Source: a bacterium ADurb.Bin236 (GTDB lineage: Bacteria > UBP15 > UBA6099). From it: a DNA stretch of 44,305 bases. A program made the translations under genes and the position numbers. Positions 20,098 to 25,612 of the stretch are shown here, in pieces. The stretch's first letter is position 1. Each line of letters begins with the position of its first letter. The DNA is taken from contig MWCD01000031.1 in the NCBI GenBank assembly GCA_002069885.1, positions 1 through 44,305 of the forward strand, read 5' to 3'. The notes below the pieces were generated by a model. The model was not told the origin of the DNA, ran no database searches, and saw only the letters and a program-made list of their open reading frames with translations.

Positions 20098-21075
20098 TTA
20101 TGCGAGGAAGCATGAGGCCGAGTGGCCGGGGGCGATTTCGCGGAGCGCGGGAGATTCTTTTTCGCAACGGTCGATCTTGACCGGGCAGCGTGACGCGAAC
20201 GCGCATCCGGGAATTTCTGAATCCGGGCCGGGGACGTCTCCTGTAAGGATGATGCGCCGCCGCTTTGCCTCCACTTCCGGGTCGGGTATCGGTATGGCGG
20301 AGAGAAGAGCTTTCGTGTACGGGTGAGCGGGCGACGCGTAGATGTCCTTCGAATCGGCTATCTCGACGATTTTGCCAAGATACATGACGGCGACTCTGTT
20401 GCTTATATGCCGCACTACGCTGAGGTCGTGAGCTATAAAAAGATAGCTGAAGTGGTATTTGTTTTGCAGGTCTTCGAGCAGGTTTATTATCTGCGCGCGG
20501 ATGGAGACGTCCAGAGCGCTCACCGGCTCGTCGCAGATAATCAGCGAGGGATTGAGAGCGAGCGCGCGGGCGATGCCGATGCGCTGCCGCTGGCCGCCGC
20601 TGAACTCGTGTGGATATCTCCTTATGTAGCGCGGGTCAAGCCCGACGGTTTCTAGAAGTTCCTCGGCGCGGGCCTGCCTTTCCCGCGCGTTCATTACATT
20701 GAAACAAGCGAGAGGCTCGGTGACTATCTGGAGCACTGTCATGCGCGGGTTCAGAGACGCGTACGGGTCCTGATAAATCACCTGAAGGTCTTTGTAAATC
20801 ATGCGGAGATTTTCGCCGCGCAAGCCGGCGATGTTCTGTCCGTCGAAAGTGATTTCTCCGGCGGCCGTTTTTTCGAGGCCGAGGATGGCCTTGGCTGCGG
20901 TGGTTTTTCCGCAGCCGCTTTCTCCAACCAGTCCAAGGGTTTCCCCTTTTTCGATATCGAAAGAAACGCCATTCACAGCGCGGATGCAGCCTGTTATTCT
21001 GCGTCGGATTAAGCCCGTCCGGATTGGGAAGTGGACTTTGACGTCACGGAGCGATAGAAGAGGAGACACACTCAT
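20098..21075 (-). CDS. oppF: Oligopeptide ABC transporter ATP-binding protein OppF
   Basis: A 325-residue ABC ATPase. Walker A is G51-ESGCGKT58, the signature is FSGGQRQR, and Walker B is SLIICDEPVSALD, followed by the H-loop FIAHDLSVVRH. The C-terminal oligopeptide-transporter domain has the cysteine pattern GCAFASRCPVKIDRCEKESP, known to hold an iron-sulfur cluster in some relatives. I chose the ATG at 21075 because it overlaps the oppD stop by four bases (ATGA) with AAGGAG upstream; the open frame to 21189 lies inside oppD. It is the last gene of the oppABCDF operon. Confidence 0.93.
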   Translation of the reverse strand: MSVSPLLSLRDVKVHFPIRTGLIRRRITGCIRAVNGVSFDIEKGETLGLVGESGCGKTTAAKAILGLEKTAAGEITFDGQNIAGLRGENLRMIYKDLQVIYQDPYASLNPRMTVLQIVTEPLACFNVMNARERQARAEELLETVGLDPRYIRRYPHEFSGGQRQRIGIARALALNPSLIICDEPVSALDVSIRAQIINLLEDLQNKYHFSYLFIAHDLSVVRHISNRVAVMYLGKIVEIADSKDIYASPAHPYTKALLSAIPIPDPEVEAKRRRIILTGDVPGPDSEIPGCAFASRCPVKIDRCEKESPALREIAPGHSASCFLA

Positions 21076-22067
21076 GTGGCGCGCTCCTTTTTCGATTCGA
21101 TATCCACCCAGCAGGCGACTTTTCTTCCGGGTCCGATCTCCGTCAGGGGCGGTTCTTTGCTGAAGCAGCGTTTCACCGCGAACGGGCATCTCGGATTAAA
21201 GCTGCATCCCGGCGGGTTGTGAATGAGGTCGGGAGGCAGTCCGGGAATGGAGAAGAGGCGCTCTTTTCGTTCCGCGTCCAGACGAGGAATGGAGCGGAGC
21301 AGGCTGAAGGTGTAAGGATGAAGAGGGCGCGCGAAGAGCGGGCCGGTCGCGGCGCTTTCCACCACCCGCCCTGCGTACATCACCAGAATGTCTTCGCACA
21401 CGCTAGCCACCACGCCCAAGTCATGGGTGATAAGGATGACTGCCACGCCAGTCTCTTTTCTCATTTTCTGGATGAGTTCGAGGATTTGCGCCTGAATGGT
21501 CACATCGAGCGCCGTAGTCGGCTCGTCGGCGATGAGCGCGGCAGGCTCGCACATCAGGGCCATAGCTATCATCACTCGCTGCCGCATCCCCCCGCTGAAC
21601 TGGTGCGGGTAGTCGTGGAATCTTTTTTCAGGAGAAGGGATGCCGACGGCGCGCAGCAGTTCAAGCGCGCGCGCCTCCGCTTCCGCTCTCGACGCTCCTT
21701 TGTGAATCATCATGCCTTCTGTCATCTGGAGGCTTATTTTCAGCACAGGGTTTAGCGAAGTCATAGGGTCTTGAAAAATCACCGCGATGTCGTTGCCTCG
21801 GACTTTGCGCAACTCTCCCGGTTTCATCGCTAGCAGGTCTTTGCCCTTGAACAGCGCCTTGCCGCCCTCGATTTTTCCGGGAGGCTGGGGGATGAGTCCG
21901 AGAAAGGAGAGGTGGGTGACGCTTTTTCCGCAGCCGCTTTCGCCGACAATGCCCAGCGATCCGCCGGGCATTAGGTCGAACGAAACTCCGTCCACCGCGC
22001 GCACCACTCCGTCCGCCGTGTGGAATCTGGTGACGAGGTTTTGAACTGACAGTACCGGTTCGGCCAT
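21072..22067 (-). CDS. oppD: Oligopeptide ABC transporter ATP-binding protein OppD
   Basis: A 331-residue ABC ATPase. Walker A G42-ESGCGKS49, signature FSGGMRQR, Walker [14 protein letters not shown] and H-loop [10 protein letters not shown] are all intact. The C-terminal region has [12 protein letters not shown] and the cysteine pattern [23 protein letters not shown], typical of the Opp/Dpp subfamily. OppD and OppF form the heterodimeric motor under OppB/OppC. The gene starts 21 bases after oppC ends and overlaps oppF by four bases. Confidence 0.94.
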
Positions 22068-22088: not shown

Positions 22089-23006
22089 TTATTTCTGGTC
22101 TTTCATCTGCGGGTCGAGCGCGTCTCTCAGGCCGTCTCCCAGAAAGTTGAGGGAGAACAGGGTTATCGCGAGAGCGAGTCCCGGAAAAATCATCTGCCAT
22201 GGATAGGTGTCCAGCGATTGCCGACCGTCGGAAGCGAGAGACCCCCAACTCGCCATCGGGGCTTGAACGCCGAGGCCGAGGAAACTCAGGAAAGCTTCTT
22301 CGAGCATGACGGCCGGGACTGTTAGAGTGGCGTAAACAATCACCGGGCCGAGCAGGTTCGGGATGACATGCCGTGATATGATCCGGAACACGCCGGCGCC
22401 TGAAGTGCGCGCGGCCAGTATGTACTCTTTCGTTTTTATAGAAAGAGTCTGGCCTCTTGTTATGCGGCTCATCGTCAGCCACTGCACCGCGCCAAGCCCG
22501 ATGAACAGCAGGTACAGTTTCTTTTCCGCCGGGGCGTTGTGGAATATCACCATCATCAGGATGACAAGAAACATGAAAGGCAGGCCGTAAAGGATGTCGA
22601 CAAAGCGCATCATTATGTTGTCCGCGCGGCCGCCGAGGTATCCGGCGGCTGCCCCGTAGCTGACGCCGATTATGATGCTGACGAAAGTGGCGACGATGCC
22701 CACCGCCAGAGAAACGCGTCCACCGTACAGGATTCTGGTCAATAGGTCGCGTCCAAGATGGTCGGCTCCCAGAGGATATTCCCGCGATGGCGGATGATTT
22801 CCGTCGGAAAGGTGTATCTCGTCGAAAGCGTAGGGGGTGAGCGTCGGAGCAAGAATCGCCGCGCAGGCGATGAGGATTAGCAGCGCGCCGCCCGCCACCG
22901 CCATTCTGTTTTTCAACAGCCGACGCCACGCATCCTTCCAGAGGCTCGTGCCTTTCACCGGCTGGACATCCGCCGCCGCTCTGGTTTTTTCATTATCGTT
23001 CGTCAT
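22089..23006 (-). CDS. oppC: Oligopeptide ABC transporter permease OppC
   Basis: A 305-residue permease with six expected transmembrane helices. It has the family N-terminal half (LWKDAWRRLLKNRMAVAGGALLILI), the periplasmic YPLGADHLGRDLLTRILYGGRVSL motif and an EAA loop (EYILAARTSGAGVFRIISRHVIPN) that contacts the ATPases. The C-terminus LGDGLRDALDPQMK is typical. The open frame reaches 23039 with a TTG codon, but I prefer the ATG at 23006, which does not overlap oppB and has GAAAAG before it. Length matches E. coli OppC (302), with no sign of damage. Confidence 0.92.
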   Translation of the reverse strand: MTNDNEKTRAAADVQPVKGTSLWKDAWRRLLKNRMAVAGGALLILIACAAILAPTLTPYAFDEIHLSDGNHPPSREYPLGADHLGRDLLTRILYGGRVSLAVGIVATFVSIIIGVSYGAAAGYLGGRADNIMMRFVDILYGLPFMFLVILMMVIFHNAPAEKKLYLLFIGLGAVQWLTMSRITRGQTLSIKTKEYILAARTSGAGVFRIISRHVIPNLLGPVIVYATLTVPAVMLEEAFLSFLGLGVQAPMASWGSLASDGRQSLDTYPWQMIFPGLALAITLFSLNFLGDGLRDALDPQMKDQK

Positions 23007-23025: not shown

Positions 23026-23889
23026 TCATTCGTAAACAATTCTCGGATCCAGAAACGCGTAAACGATATCCACCGCGAGATTGAATATAATCAGAAATCC
23101 GCTGTATAGAATCACCGTGCCGATGGTAAGAGTGTAGTCCCGGTTCAGCGCGGAGTTGACGAACTCGCGGCCAATGCCGGGAACGCCTGAGATGGTCTCT
23201 ATGATAAGCGAGCCGGTGAGAATGGCGGCTCCCATGATGACCAGCCTCTCGGGCAGTCCCTTCGCTCGTGCGGTCCGTATGAAGTCCTGACGGATAACTT
23301 CGAGCATCCCCGCGCGGGACAGTCTGGCGATATACGCGCTGTACATCAGGCCGAGAGCCACAACGGGGCATATCATCTGGTCCCAGCGGCCCCAGCCGCT
23401 GACAGTCAGAATCTTCAACTTCACGGCGAAGAAATAAATAAGCGTGGAGAGGACGACGAAGTTCGGCACGGAGACGCCGACCATGGAAAAAGACATCGCC
23501 GCATAATCAACGGCGGAATTCTGGCGGAAGGCCGCCAAACACCCGGCGGGTATGCCCACCAAGAGCGCGAACAGCAGTGCGAGCGACCCCAGTTGCAGCG
23601 TGGTCGGCAGCCCTGCGGCGATTATCTCGTTTACCGACCTGTCTTTGTATCTGAACGAAGGGCCGAGGTCTCCCCTGAGCAAATTGCCCATGTATCTGAA
23701 GTATTGTTTAACAAGAGGCTCGTCGAGGTGATATCGCTCCTCGATCATTTTCTGCACTTCCGCCGGCATGACGCGCTCTCTTGAAAAAGGCCCGCCCGGA
23801 GCCAGACGCATCATGAAAAAAGTAATGGTGACGATGATCCAGAGGACCGGGATGGCGGTCAGCAGCCGCCGGGCGACATATCTAAGCAT
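23026..23889 (-). CDS. oppB: Oligopeptide ABC transporter permease OppB, with an apparent internal deletion
   Basis: A 287-residue permease. The N-terminus (MLRYVARRLLTAIPVLWIIVTITFFMMRLAPGGPF in pieces) and the GDLGPSFRYKDRSVNEI region match OppB very well. The EAA loop starts normally (RTARAKGLPERLVIM, to about residue 219) but jumps directly to GAAILTGSLIIETISGVPGIG. In canonical OppB about 19 residues of the type RHALKPALLPV... lie between these blocks, and the total length difference from E. coli OppB (306) is also 19. The frame is intact and the C-terminus (LNRDYTL, YAFLDPRI) is normal. The missing part includes the end of the coupling region and the start of a transmembrane helix. GAGG lies four bases before the ATG. 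Confidence 0.88.
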   Translation of the reverse strand: MLRYVARRLLTAIPVLWIIVTITFFMMRLAPGGPFSRERVMPAEVQKMIEERYHLDEPLVKQYFRYMGNLLRGDLGPSFRYKDRSVNEIIAAGLPTTLQLGSLALLFALLVGIPAGCLAAFRQNSAVDYAAMSFSMVGVSVPNFVVLSTLIYFFAVKLKILTVSGWGRWDQMICPVVALGLMYSAYIARLSRAGMLEVIRQDFIRTARAKGLPERLVIMGAAILTGSLIIETISGVPGIGREFVNSALNRDYTLTIGTVILYSGFLIIFNLAVDIVYAFLDPRIVYE

Positions 23890-23910: not shown

Positions 23911-25566
23911 TTATTTTCCGGTCTTCACAGCGTAGCCCGCTTCCCGCAGGAGTCGGCGCGCCTCTTCGGGATTATAGTCCTCGCCTTGAGGCGGCTCGTA
24001 GTCCTTCATGTGCATGTGAGGCACAAACGTCGTCGCCGTTTTCTCTCCAGACTTCGTCACGAACTTCACCAACTCATCTTTGTTAATCGCAAGGTTGAGC
24101 GCGCGGCGCACGCGGGGATCGTTCAGCGGCTCTTTCGTCGTGTTGAACCTGTAATAATAGACCGCAAGAAAATCCGTCTTCTTCGCCTGCGGGTCGTTCA
24201 TGTATTTCTCCGCGTAAGGCAGCGGGATTGTGTTCACCCAGTAAGACTGTCCGGCCTCGAACATGCTCACCGCCGTGATGTTGTCCTCAACGGAGTACGC
24301 GACCAGTTTCGACAGGCGGACATTTGCGGCGTCGTAATAGCCGGGGTTTTTCGTCATTACGAGTTTGCTTTTGGGCTTCCATTCAGTCAGCTTGAACGGC
24401 CCGTTGGTCACGATATTCTCCGGCCTCGTCCATTTGTCATTGAATTTCTCGACGCACTTTTTGTTGACCGGCATCAGGGTGTGGAAAGCGAGCAGGTCGA
24501 GCCAGAAGTGTGTCGGGGAATCAAGCGTCACCTTCAGCGTGAAATCATCCACCGCCTTCAATCCCACCTGCGAGAAATCGGAAATTTCCTTGTCATAGTA
24601 TTTTTTCGCGTTTTTGATGTAAAAGAGTTGATACGCGTATTCGGCGGTCGTTTCCGGTTCGAGAACTCTTTTCCATGAATAAACGAAGTCGCCCGCCGTA
24701 ACCGGGTCGCCGTTCGTCCATTTGGCGTTGCGGCGCAGATGGAAAACGAATTCGGTGTGCTCGTCGTTGACCTCCCAGCTTTCCGCCATCCCCGGGATTG
24801 GTTCGAGAGTGTCCGGGTCGTACTGCACGAGCCCCTCGAATATCTGCGTCGAAATAGTGAACTCCACGCTTCCCGTCATTAGTCCGGGGTCGAGCGTCTC
24901 CGGCTCGGCCGAAAGGTTGAAGTGGAACACCTGCTCCTGCGGTGGCAGAACTTTACCATTTTTCTCAAGATAGACATATTTGAGAATGTGAAGGTCGCGC
25001 ATATTGAAATGCATTCCCTTGACGAAGTCCTTCACGAGGTTTTTGTTCACGTAGAAATATATCGGCATTATCGGCATTTCTTTCATCAGAATTTCTTCAG
25101 CGTCGTGGAACATCTTCATGCGTTCGTCGGCGTCTCCCTCCATCGCAGCCGTTTTTATCAGCCTGTCGTATTCAGCGTTGCTCCATCCCGTCTGATTGTT
25201 TCCTCCGTCGGTGACGAACATGTCGAGGAATGTGTTCGGATCGGGGTAGTCGCCTATCCAGCCAGCGCGGGCTATCTGATAATCTAAAGATTGGAGAGAC
25301 TTAAGATATGTTTTCCATTCGACGTTGGCTAGGTCGACCTGTATGCCCAACTCTTTTTTCCACATCTGTTGAAGGGTTTCGGCAATTAGCTTGTGGCTTT
25401 CCGAGATGTTGTAGAGAAGCTGAAGCTTTGGGAAAGGCTTGCCTGATGAGTCGTCGCTCTTGGGCTTGCCCGAACACCCGGCGAGCATCGCAATCGCTAG
25501 CGCCGCGACCACAAGTTTCGCTGAAGCGCTTCTTATTCCGTTCGCCTTGCGATTCCTCTTCATCAT
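23911..25566 (-). CDS. oppA: OppA-family peptide-binding lipoprotein, apparently circularly permuted
   Basis: A 551-residue lipoprotein with a signal ending in the lipobox LAGC (Cys31). Residues about 43-200 carry FPKLQLLYNISESHKLIAET, LDYQIARAGWIGDYPDPNTF, GWSNAEYD and MPIMPIYFYVNKNLV, all of which belong to the C-terminal part of the SBP_bac_5 family. A short linker (NGKVLPPQEQ, about 203-212) follows. Then comes what is normally the N-terminus: NLSAEPETLDPG, FEGLVQYDPDTLEPIPGMAESWEV, the signature KWTNGDPVTAGDFVYSWKRVL, and on to EEARRLLREAGYAVKTGK, where it ends. In ordinary OppA that last helix runs straight into the FPKLQLLYN strand. All expected blocks are present once and in frame, only rotated. 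The start at 25566 has GGGAG seven bases upstream. Confidence 0.93.
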   Translation of the reverse strand: MMKRNRKANGIRSASAKLVVAALAIAMLAGCSGKPKSDDSSGKPFPKLQLLYNISESHKLIAETLQQMWKKELGIQVDLANVEWKTYLKSLQSLDYQIARAGWIGDYPDPNTFLDMFVTDGGNNQTGWSNAEYDRLIKTAAMEGDADERMKMFHDAEEILMKEMPIMPIYFYVNKNLVKDFVKGMHFNMRDLHILKYVYLEKNGKVLPPQEQVFHFNLSAEPETLDPGLMTGSVEFTISTQIFEGLVQYDPDTLEPIPGMAESWEVNDEHTEFVFHLRRNAKWTNGDPVTAGDFVYSWKRVLEPETTAEYAYQLFYIKNAKKYYDKEISDFSQVGLKAVDDFTLKVTLDSPTHFWLDLLAFHTLMPVNKKCVEKFNDKWTRPENIVTNGPFKLTEWKPKSKLVMTKNPGYYDAANVRLSKLVAYSVEDNITAVSMFEAGQSYWVNTIPLPYAEKYMNDPQAKKTDFLAVYYYRFNTTKEPLNDPRVRRALNLAINKDELVKFVTKSGEKTATTFVPHMHMKDYEPPQGEDYNPEEARRLLREAGYAVKTGK

Positions 25567-25612
25567 ATATTCACGCTCCCGATATCTTTTTAATGAGACC
25601 GCATTGGAACTT

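Follow-up and report, generated by a model that had tools for sequence, protein, structure and literature searches.

A circularly permuted oligopeptide-binding lipoprotein of the OppA family in UBP15 bacteria

We describe a gene of a UBP15 bacterium whose product is very probably a genuine, old and selected circular permutant of the OppA type, serving as the dedicated receptor of an oppBCDF importer and most likely derived by fusion of tandem gene copies. The gene is contained in the window, by which we mean the whole stretch of DNA that was analysed (44,305 nucleotides). A permuted OppA-family lipoprotein had been proposed in a first-pass annotation made from the sequence alone, and that proposal is borne out by crossing alignments obtained with phmmer and Pfam as well as by the order in which a profile of canonical relatives is matched. 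The features of the gene and of its operon are as follows.

23911..25566, minus strand: circularly permuted oppA (SBP_bac_5, family-5 oligopeptide-binding lipoprotein), 551 amino acids plus stop (translation, Pfam, phmmer, profile)
25566 to 23914, minus strand: coding part, with the stop codon at 23911-23913 (ORF)
25576..25580, minus strand: Shine-Dalgarno-like GGGAG, 9 bases 5' of the ATG, present also in three congeners (sequence)
25474..25566, minus strand: lipoprotein signal peptide, lipobox LAGC, Cys31
25447..25473, minus strand: residues 32-40, spacer from the lipidated Cys to the new N-terminal block
24958..25446, minus strand: residues 41-203, C-terminal block of a normal OppA (Salmonella OppA about 361 to the end)
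24934..24957, minus strand: residues 204-211, GKVLPPQE, linker from the old C-terminus to the old mature N-terminus
23929..24933, minus strand: residues 212-546, N-terminal block of a normal OppA (Salmonella OppA 13-354)
23914..23928, minus strand: residues 547-551, VKTGK, new C-terminal tail at the cut
23026..23889, minus strand: oppB permease, 18 residues shorter than in congeners
22089..23006, minus strand: oppC permease (PF00528 and OppC_N)
21072..22067, minus strand: oppD ATPase (ABC_tran and oligo_HPY)
20098..21189, minus strand: oppF ATPase (ABC_tran and oligo_HPY)

The first-pass annotation had also taken the promoter, ribosome site and signal to be in place. The last two were found, as the Shine-Dalgarno-like GGGAG and the lipobox LAGC with Cys31; the promoter did not hold up, the promoter-like match at 25641-25613 (minus strand) being at chance level (1 found, 0.7 expected).

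When the window protein is compared with solved structures by phmmer, each of the best OppA chains is matched in two crossing stretches with independent E-values. Against B. subtilis OppA (8are_A), residues 212-526 correspond to chain residues 20-336 (E 7e-62) and residues 40-184 to chain residues 363-508, where an E-value of 7e-38 rules out a chance match or a wrong family for the first block; against Salmonella OppA (1b05), residues 212-546 correspond to 13-354 and residues 48-186 to 361-499. The Pfam profile PF00496 (SBP_bac_5), in which a crossing alignment had been anticipated, also matches in two stretches (total E 3e-91), the crossing itself being seen against the OppA chains. The better stretch covers profile positions 1-282 of 368, and the score of 306.6 bits against a curated cutoff of 32.4 places the protein in SBP_bac_5. 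Along the window protein, a profile derived from 30 canonical relatives runs through positions 371-532 and then 32-370 with no part absent or duplicated, in agreement with the earlier statement that each block is present once and in frame. The canonical block order of SBP_bac_5/OppA is found neither in the window protein nor in its counterparts in five related genomes (G001-G005). The homologies cross, the gene is contiguous and neither block has a second copy, as is characteristic of a natural permutant. With its swapped block order, the window protein is consequently a permuted member of SBP_bac_5, homologous to the family but not colinear with it.

The loop that connects LLREAGY to FPKLQLLYN, or, in the general form, an 'LLxEAGY' helix to an 'FPxLxLLYN' strand, holds the cut. 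The sequence across the cut in canonical relatives is LLAEAGYPDGKGFPTLTILYN, the same region being also given as AKKLLAEAGYPDGKGFPTLTILYN; the window protein ends in LLREAGYAVKTGK and carries SSGKPFPKLQLLYN near its start. The Gly-Lys shared by both new ends, which had been noticed at first reading, is an overlap at the cut, as judged by comparison with the canonical relatives. At the other junction, canonical proteins end in YLEK or YLER and the window protein runs on as YLEK-NGKVLPPQE-QVFHFN into the usual N-terminus, the old ends being bridged by a linker of 8 residues. So short a linker, together with a cut placed in a loop, is consistent with a structure in which the old termini, and likewise the new ones, would be near each other; a common surface point for the new ends had been put forward at first reading.

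An unusual gene order of this kind could in principle be an artefact of assembly or binning, in which fragments of a single normal oppA gene, or of two such genes, were put together in a false order. All known UBP15 members are metagenome-assembled genomes, and tandem canonical SBP genes, which occur elsewhere, could mislead assembly. We nevertheless assign this explanation next to no probability. The permuted gene is present over its full length in three congeneric genomes (G001-G003, 97-98% identity) and as one uninterrupted match in G004 (same family, 62%) and G005 (another family of the order, 63%), so that six of the seven UBP15 genomes examined have the permuted order; the named MAG contigs L032-L034, one of them labelled UBP15 (UBA6099), have it as well. 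The junctions are identical in the four congeneric genomes, whose genes are up to about 130 substitutions apart, and the same order recurs in the two genomes at 62-63% identity. It had been suggested that related genomes be searched for the same domain order, and its presence in five of them, down to 62% identity, rules out misassembly. Moreover, a canonical OppA copy is absent from the window genome (G000; 3.87 Mb in 169 contigs), where the window gene is the sole OppA-like gene. The only other SBP_bac_5 gene found there is a distant one in canonical order (25% match), which agrees with the earlier remark that no leftover copy is visible.

When the four congeneric genes are compared codon by codon, dN/dS lies at 0.03-0.10 for the gene as a whole and is low in both blocks, and the linker has accumulated zero nonsynonymous changes among the congeners. 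The genes oppB, oppC, oppD and oppF follow directly downstream in this order and without large gaps, which is the arrangement of an Opp operon; the order A-B-C-D is the same in G005, and in G004 oppB and oppC follow up to the end of the contig. Purifying selection, the complete opp operon and the same block order in five other genomes all speak for a working gene rather than debris, as the first-pass annotation had held. One might still regard the protein as a relic, either decaying or neofunctionalised, that has ceased to take part in peptide uptake and acts, for example, as a sensor, and the window's own OppB indeed lacks 18 residues that its congeners have. However, the low dN/dS, the retained contact residues and lipobox, the operon order retained in G004 and G005, and the whole OppB of the three congeners make a relic very improbable.

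The 18 OppB residues (RHSLKAGLLPVVSFLGPA) are missing in frame at 23232-23233, adjoining the conserved ARAKGLPE motif, and are present in all three congeners and in G005. The gap reflects a permease deletion confined to this strain or, alternatively, a small collapse of the assembly; a deletion would mean that the transporter of the window strain is possibly impaired, the OppB proteins of the congeners being whole. An accelerated divergence of OppB alongside the permuted receptors, which would hint at co-adaptation, is not supported, since canonical pairs diverge equally.

The known peptide-contacting residues His371, Arg413 and Asp419 of Salmonella OppA correspond in a gapless phmmer alignment to His58, Arg100 and Asp106 of the window protein, and all three are located in the moved block (residues 41-203). 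The superposition of a predicted structure on OppA, which had been proposed as a check, succeeded for one part of the protein: residues 197-551 of the AF2 model superpose on residues 1-358 of OppA 1ola (Z 31.6, rmsd 2.9), and sequential structure aligners return only this part. The moved block remained of low confidence. The model of the full protein, for which a shallow alignment was used, is moderate (mean pLDDT 71, pTM 0.67) with the permuted block as its weak part, and the block folded alone gives a poor and uninformative model (pLDDT 44). Since the moved block is poorly predicted, the view that it would pack as in OppA is supported by sequence rather than by structure.

We infer that the window protein keeps the OppA fold and the Venus-flytrap mode of peptide capture. 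Most likely, the lipoprotein would trap peptides between two closing lobes, as OppA does, and would pass them to OppBC, with OppDF supplying the power. In the related DppABCDF system, a scoop motif of DppB enters the cleft and touches both lobes as well as the peptide-holding residues (PMC12136057); by analogy, nothing in such a mechanism would depend on chain order. The lipid anchor is found 10-12 residues ahead of the first block and, because the start of the chain has moved, it should have passed to the lobe opposite the one with the original termini.

The UBP15 permutants are shown to have one origin within the lineage: in separate trees of the two halves, the window protein and those of G004 and G005 form one clade (support 100/99 for the N-half and 91/96 for the C-half), which in both trees is enclosed by the same broader set of canonical OppAs. 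The two blocks could alternatively be fragments of two different paralogues brought together by fission and fusion, rather than parts of one gene that was permuted. The identity of the C-part to canonical relatives is slightly above that of the N-part, by a mean of +3.4 points compared with +0.7 among canonical pairs, but this difference is well inside the spread (sd about 5). Both halves moreover yield the same three-protein clade in the same group of canonical OppAs, with G023/G170 and Anammoxibacter among the closest relatives of each, and we regard fission and fusion as quite improbable. Since the trees and the identities of the two halves agree, a single parental gene is the simple reading.

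Such a parental gene would have been permuted by duplication, which is the standard model of circular permutation (PMC3320104). Tandem oppA copies would have been fused in frame, the front of the first copy being lost while its signal was kept; loss of the back of the second copy would leave the old C-terminus, linker and old N-terminus in succession. What makes this route plausible is that relatives of the family have tandem canonical oppA copies beside oppB, and the copy of Gly-Lys kept at both ends of the cut fits two copies of the cut region. A fused-dimer intermediate was not found in the genomes searched, and for this reason we infer the tandem-duplication route rather than observe it.

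Three canonical SBP_bac_5 genes stand in tandem at L142:1-4630 (a Phyllobacterium plasmid, directly upstream of oppB) and at L037:3645-9019 (a Verrucomicrobia MAG), an arrangement that could give rise to a permutant once copies are fused and trimmed. In Phyllobacterium, the permuted protein, used as query in a translated search, matches across two neighbouring genes; this match, which extends over residues 48-546 of the permuted order, was rejected as a permutant because it consists of two adjacent canonical genes of the tandem array of three.

A set of 386 varied genomes was searched with a junction profile made up of the old C-terminus, the linker and the old N-terminus, and the junction is spanned end to end without a stop only in six UBP15 genomes and in G127. 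Other junction-spanning matches turned out to be canonical, that in G325 by direct check and those in G274 and G083 with stops inside. Through the match in G127 a second permuted group (type 2) came to light, whose cut at about position 239 precedes that of the window protein by about 130 profile positions. Type-2 junction matches are present in 107 of 188 genomes of the phylum of G127 and in 26 of 398 of the phylum of G058 (loci L062 in G127, L069-L095, L110-L133 and L135), and the more than 40 type-2 ORFs examined directly (repeats of the same gene counted) all have the cut at about 239. The members are 33-52% identical to one another, and a permease gene is located downstream at L062, L114, L115 and L117, where the flanks were read. 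At one further locus (L134, G532:C1:1105500-1109500) the type-2 gene is found in two overlapping ORFs, which indicates a frameshift or a decaying copy.

A third permuted group, which has the window's own cut (about 370), was detected by a plasmid search in the alphaproteobacteria Nitratireductor, Maritalea, Neorhizobium and Roseomonas and also in the haloarchaea Halalkalicoccus and Natrononativus (loci L136-L141, all on plasmids); its proteins include WP_113156578.1 and WP_238532955.1. These genes adjoin permease and ATPase genes, and the nearest solved structures of their products are Lmo0135 and AppA. No permutants were found in the phyla of G023 (0 of 130), G035 (0 of 3), G184 (0 of 5) and the SBP-rich G091 (0 of 95); two scans of viral contigs yielded one canonical-like fragment and nothing, respectively.

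In a tree of 54 proteins with their blocks set in canonical register, where canonical sampling is thin near the type-2 and third groups, the window clade is nested in canonical OppAs (99/99 with L008, L035, L009 and others), away from the other permutants, and the type-2 and third groups are sisters (98.2/99) elsewhere in the tree. Because the window clade stands apart from these two groups, the permutation has at least two independent origins in the SBP_bac_5 family, and perhaps a third, depending on whether the type-2 and third groups go back to a common ancestor that was a fused dimer or already permuted. A single ancient permutation or fused dimer, ancestral to all permuted SBP_bac_5 proteins and trimmed differently later, would accommodate the sister relationship of the Synergistota-like/Bacillota-like group (cut at about 239) to the alphaproteobacterial/haloarchaeal group (about 370), as well as the identity of the latter cut with that of the window protein. 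The window clade is placed within canonical OppAs far from the other permutants, however, and the cut of the large group is 130 residues from the window's, which renders a common permuted ancestor quite unlikely and favours independent origins.

The window protein resembles OppA and SBP_bac_5 in general (PF00496; cluster C, family 5) in its blocks, key contact residues, lipoprotein signal and oppBCDF operon, and differs from them in that the blocks are swapped, the termini are situated in a loop belonging to the other lobe and a linker connects the former ends. The type-2 proteins are also permuted family-5 proteins but are cut earlier, nearly all lack a lipobox and belong to other phyla, whereas the alphaproteobacterial and haloarchaeal permutants share the loop cut of the window protein but occupy a different part of the family tree.

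Among binding proteins of another type, TpMglB-2 (Tp0684) of Treponema pallidum, a glucose-binding protein of Type I, is a natural circular permutant and led to the proposal of the class 'Type Ic/Cluster Bc'; it binds D-glucose normally, and a link between its permutation and membrane tethering was suggested (PMC4990184). Both TpMglB-2 and the window protein are natural permutants of lipid-anchored solute-binding proteins of ABC importers. However, the TpMglB-2 fold is of Type I (cluster B) whereas the window protein belongs to SBP_bac_5, which is cluster C by sequence, and the permuted part of TpMglB-2 has 13% identity to its E. coli counterpart whereas both blocks of the window protein are clearly homologous to theirs. 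In Type Ic/Cluster Bc proteins the first strands of one lobe have moved to the C-terminus, which is not the case here. With an SBP_bac_5 sequence and a different block moved, the window protein is an analogue of TpMglB-2 and not a member of its class. The tethering idea fits the window protein (lipobox in P0001 and L007) and does not fit the type-2 group, where a general link between permutation and a lipid tether is not supported.

No description of permutation in the OppA/SBP_bac_5 family was found in the searchable literature, bioRxiv and subscription journals being outside its scope. To this extent the earlier statement that no natural permutant has been described in the family stands. It should not be taken as a claim that the protein is unique, given the many genomes with other permuted groups; the window gene is one instance of a broader and apparently undescribed pattern. 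It is possible, and we advance this only tentatively, that permutation in cluster C is recurrent and long-lived, with at least two, perhaps three, independent events at only two loops in UBP15, two further bacterial phyla (probably Synergistota and Bacillota), alphaproteobacteria and haloarchaea, and that the shift of the N-terminus, and in some lineages of the anchor, alters tethering or hinge motion and docking.

Few groups of transport receptors are as large as the family-5 binding proteins. The survival of a permutant over the age of a phylum indicates that a two-lobed peptide receptor tolerates moved ends and a moved anchor while remaining part of its importer. The permuted groups can serve as natural replicates in studies of a possible effect of chain order on folding, hinge motion, docking and tethering, the question of tethering having been posed by TpMglB-2 from one case only. 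Because their Pfam hits are split, such permuted proteins are missed by colinear annotation pipelines; the members of the third group, where annotated, are labelled only 'ABC transporter substrate-binding protein'.
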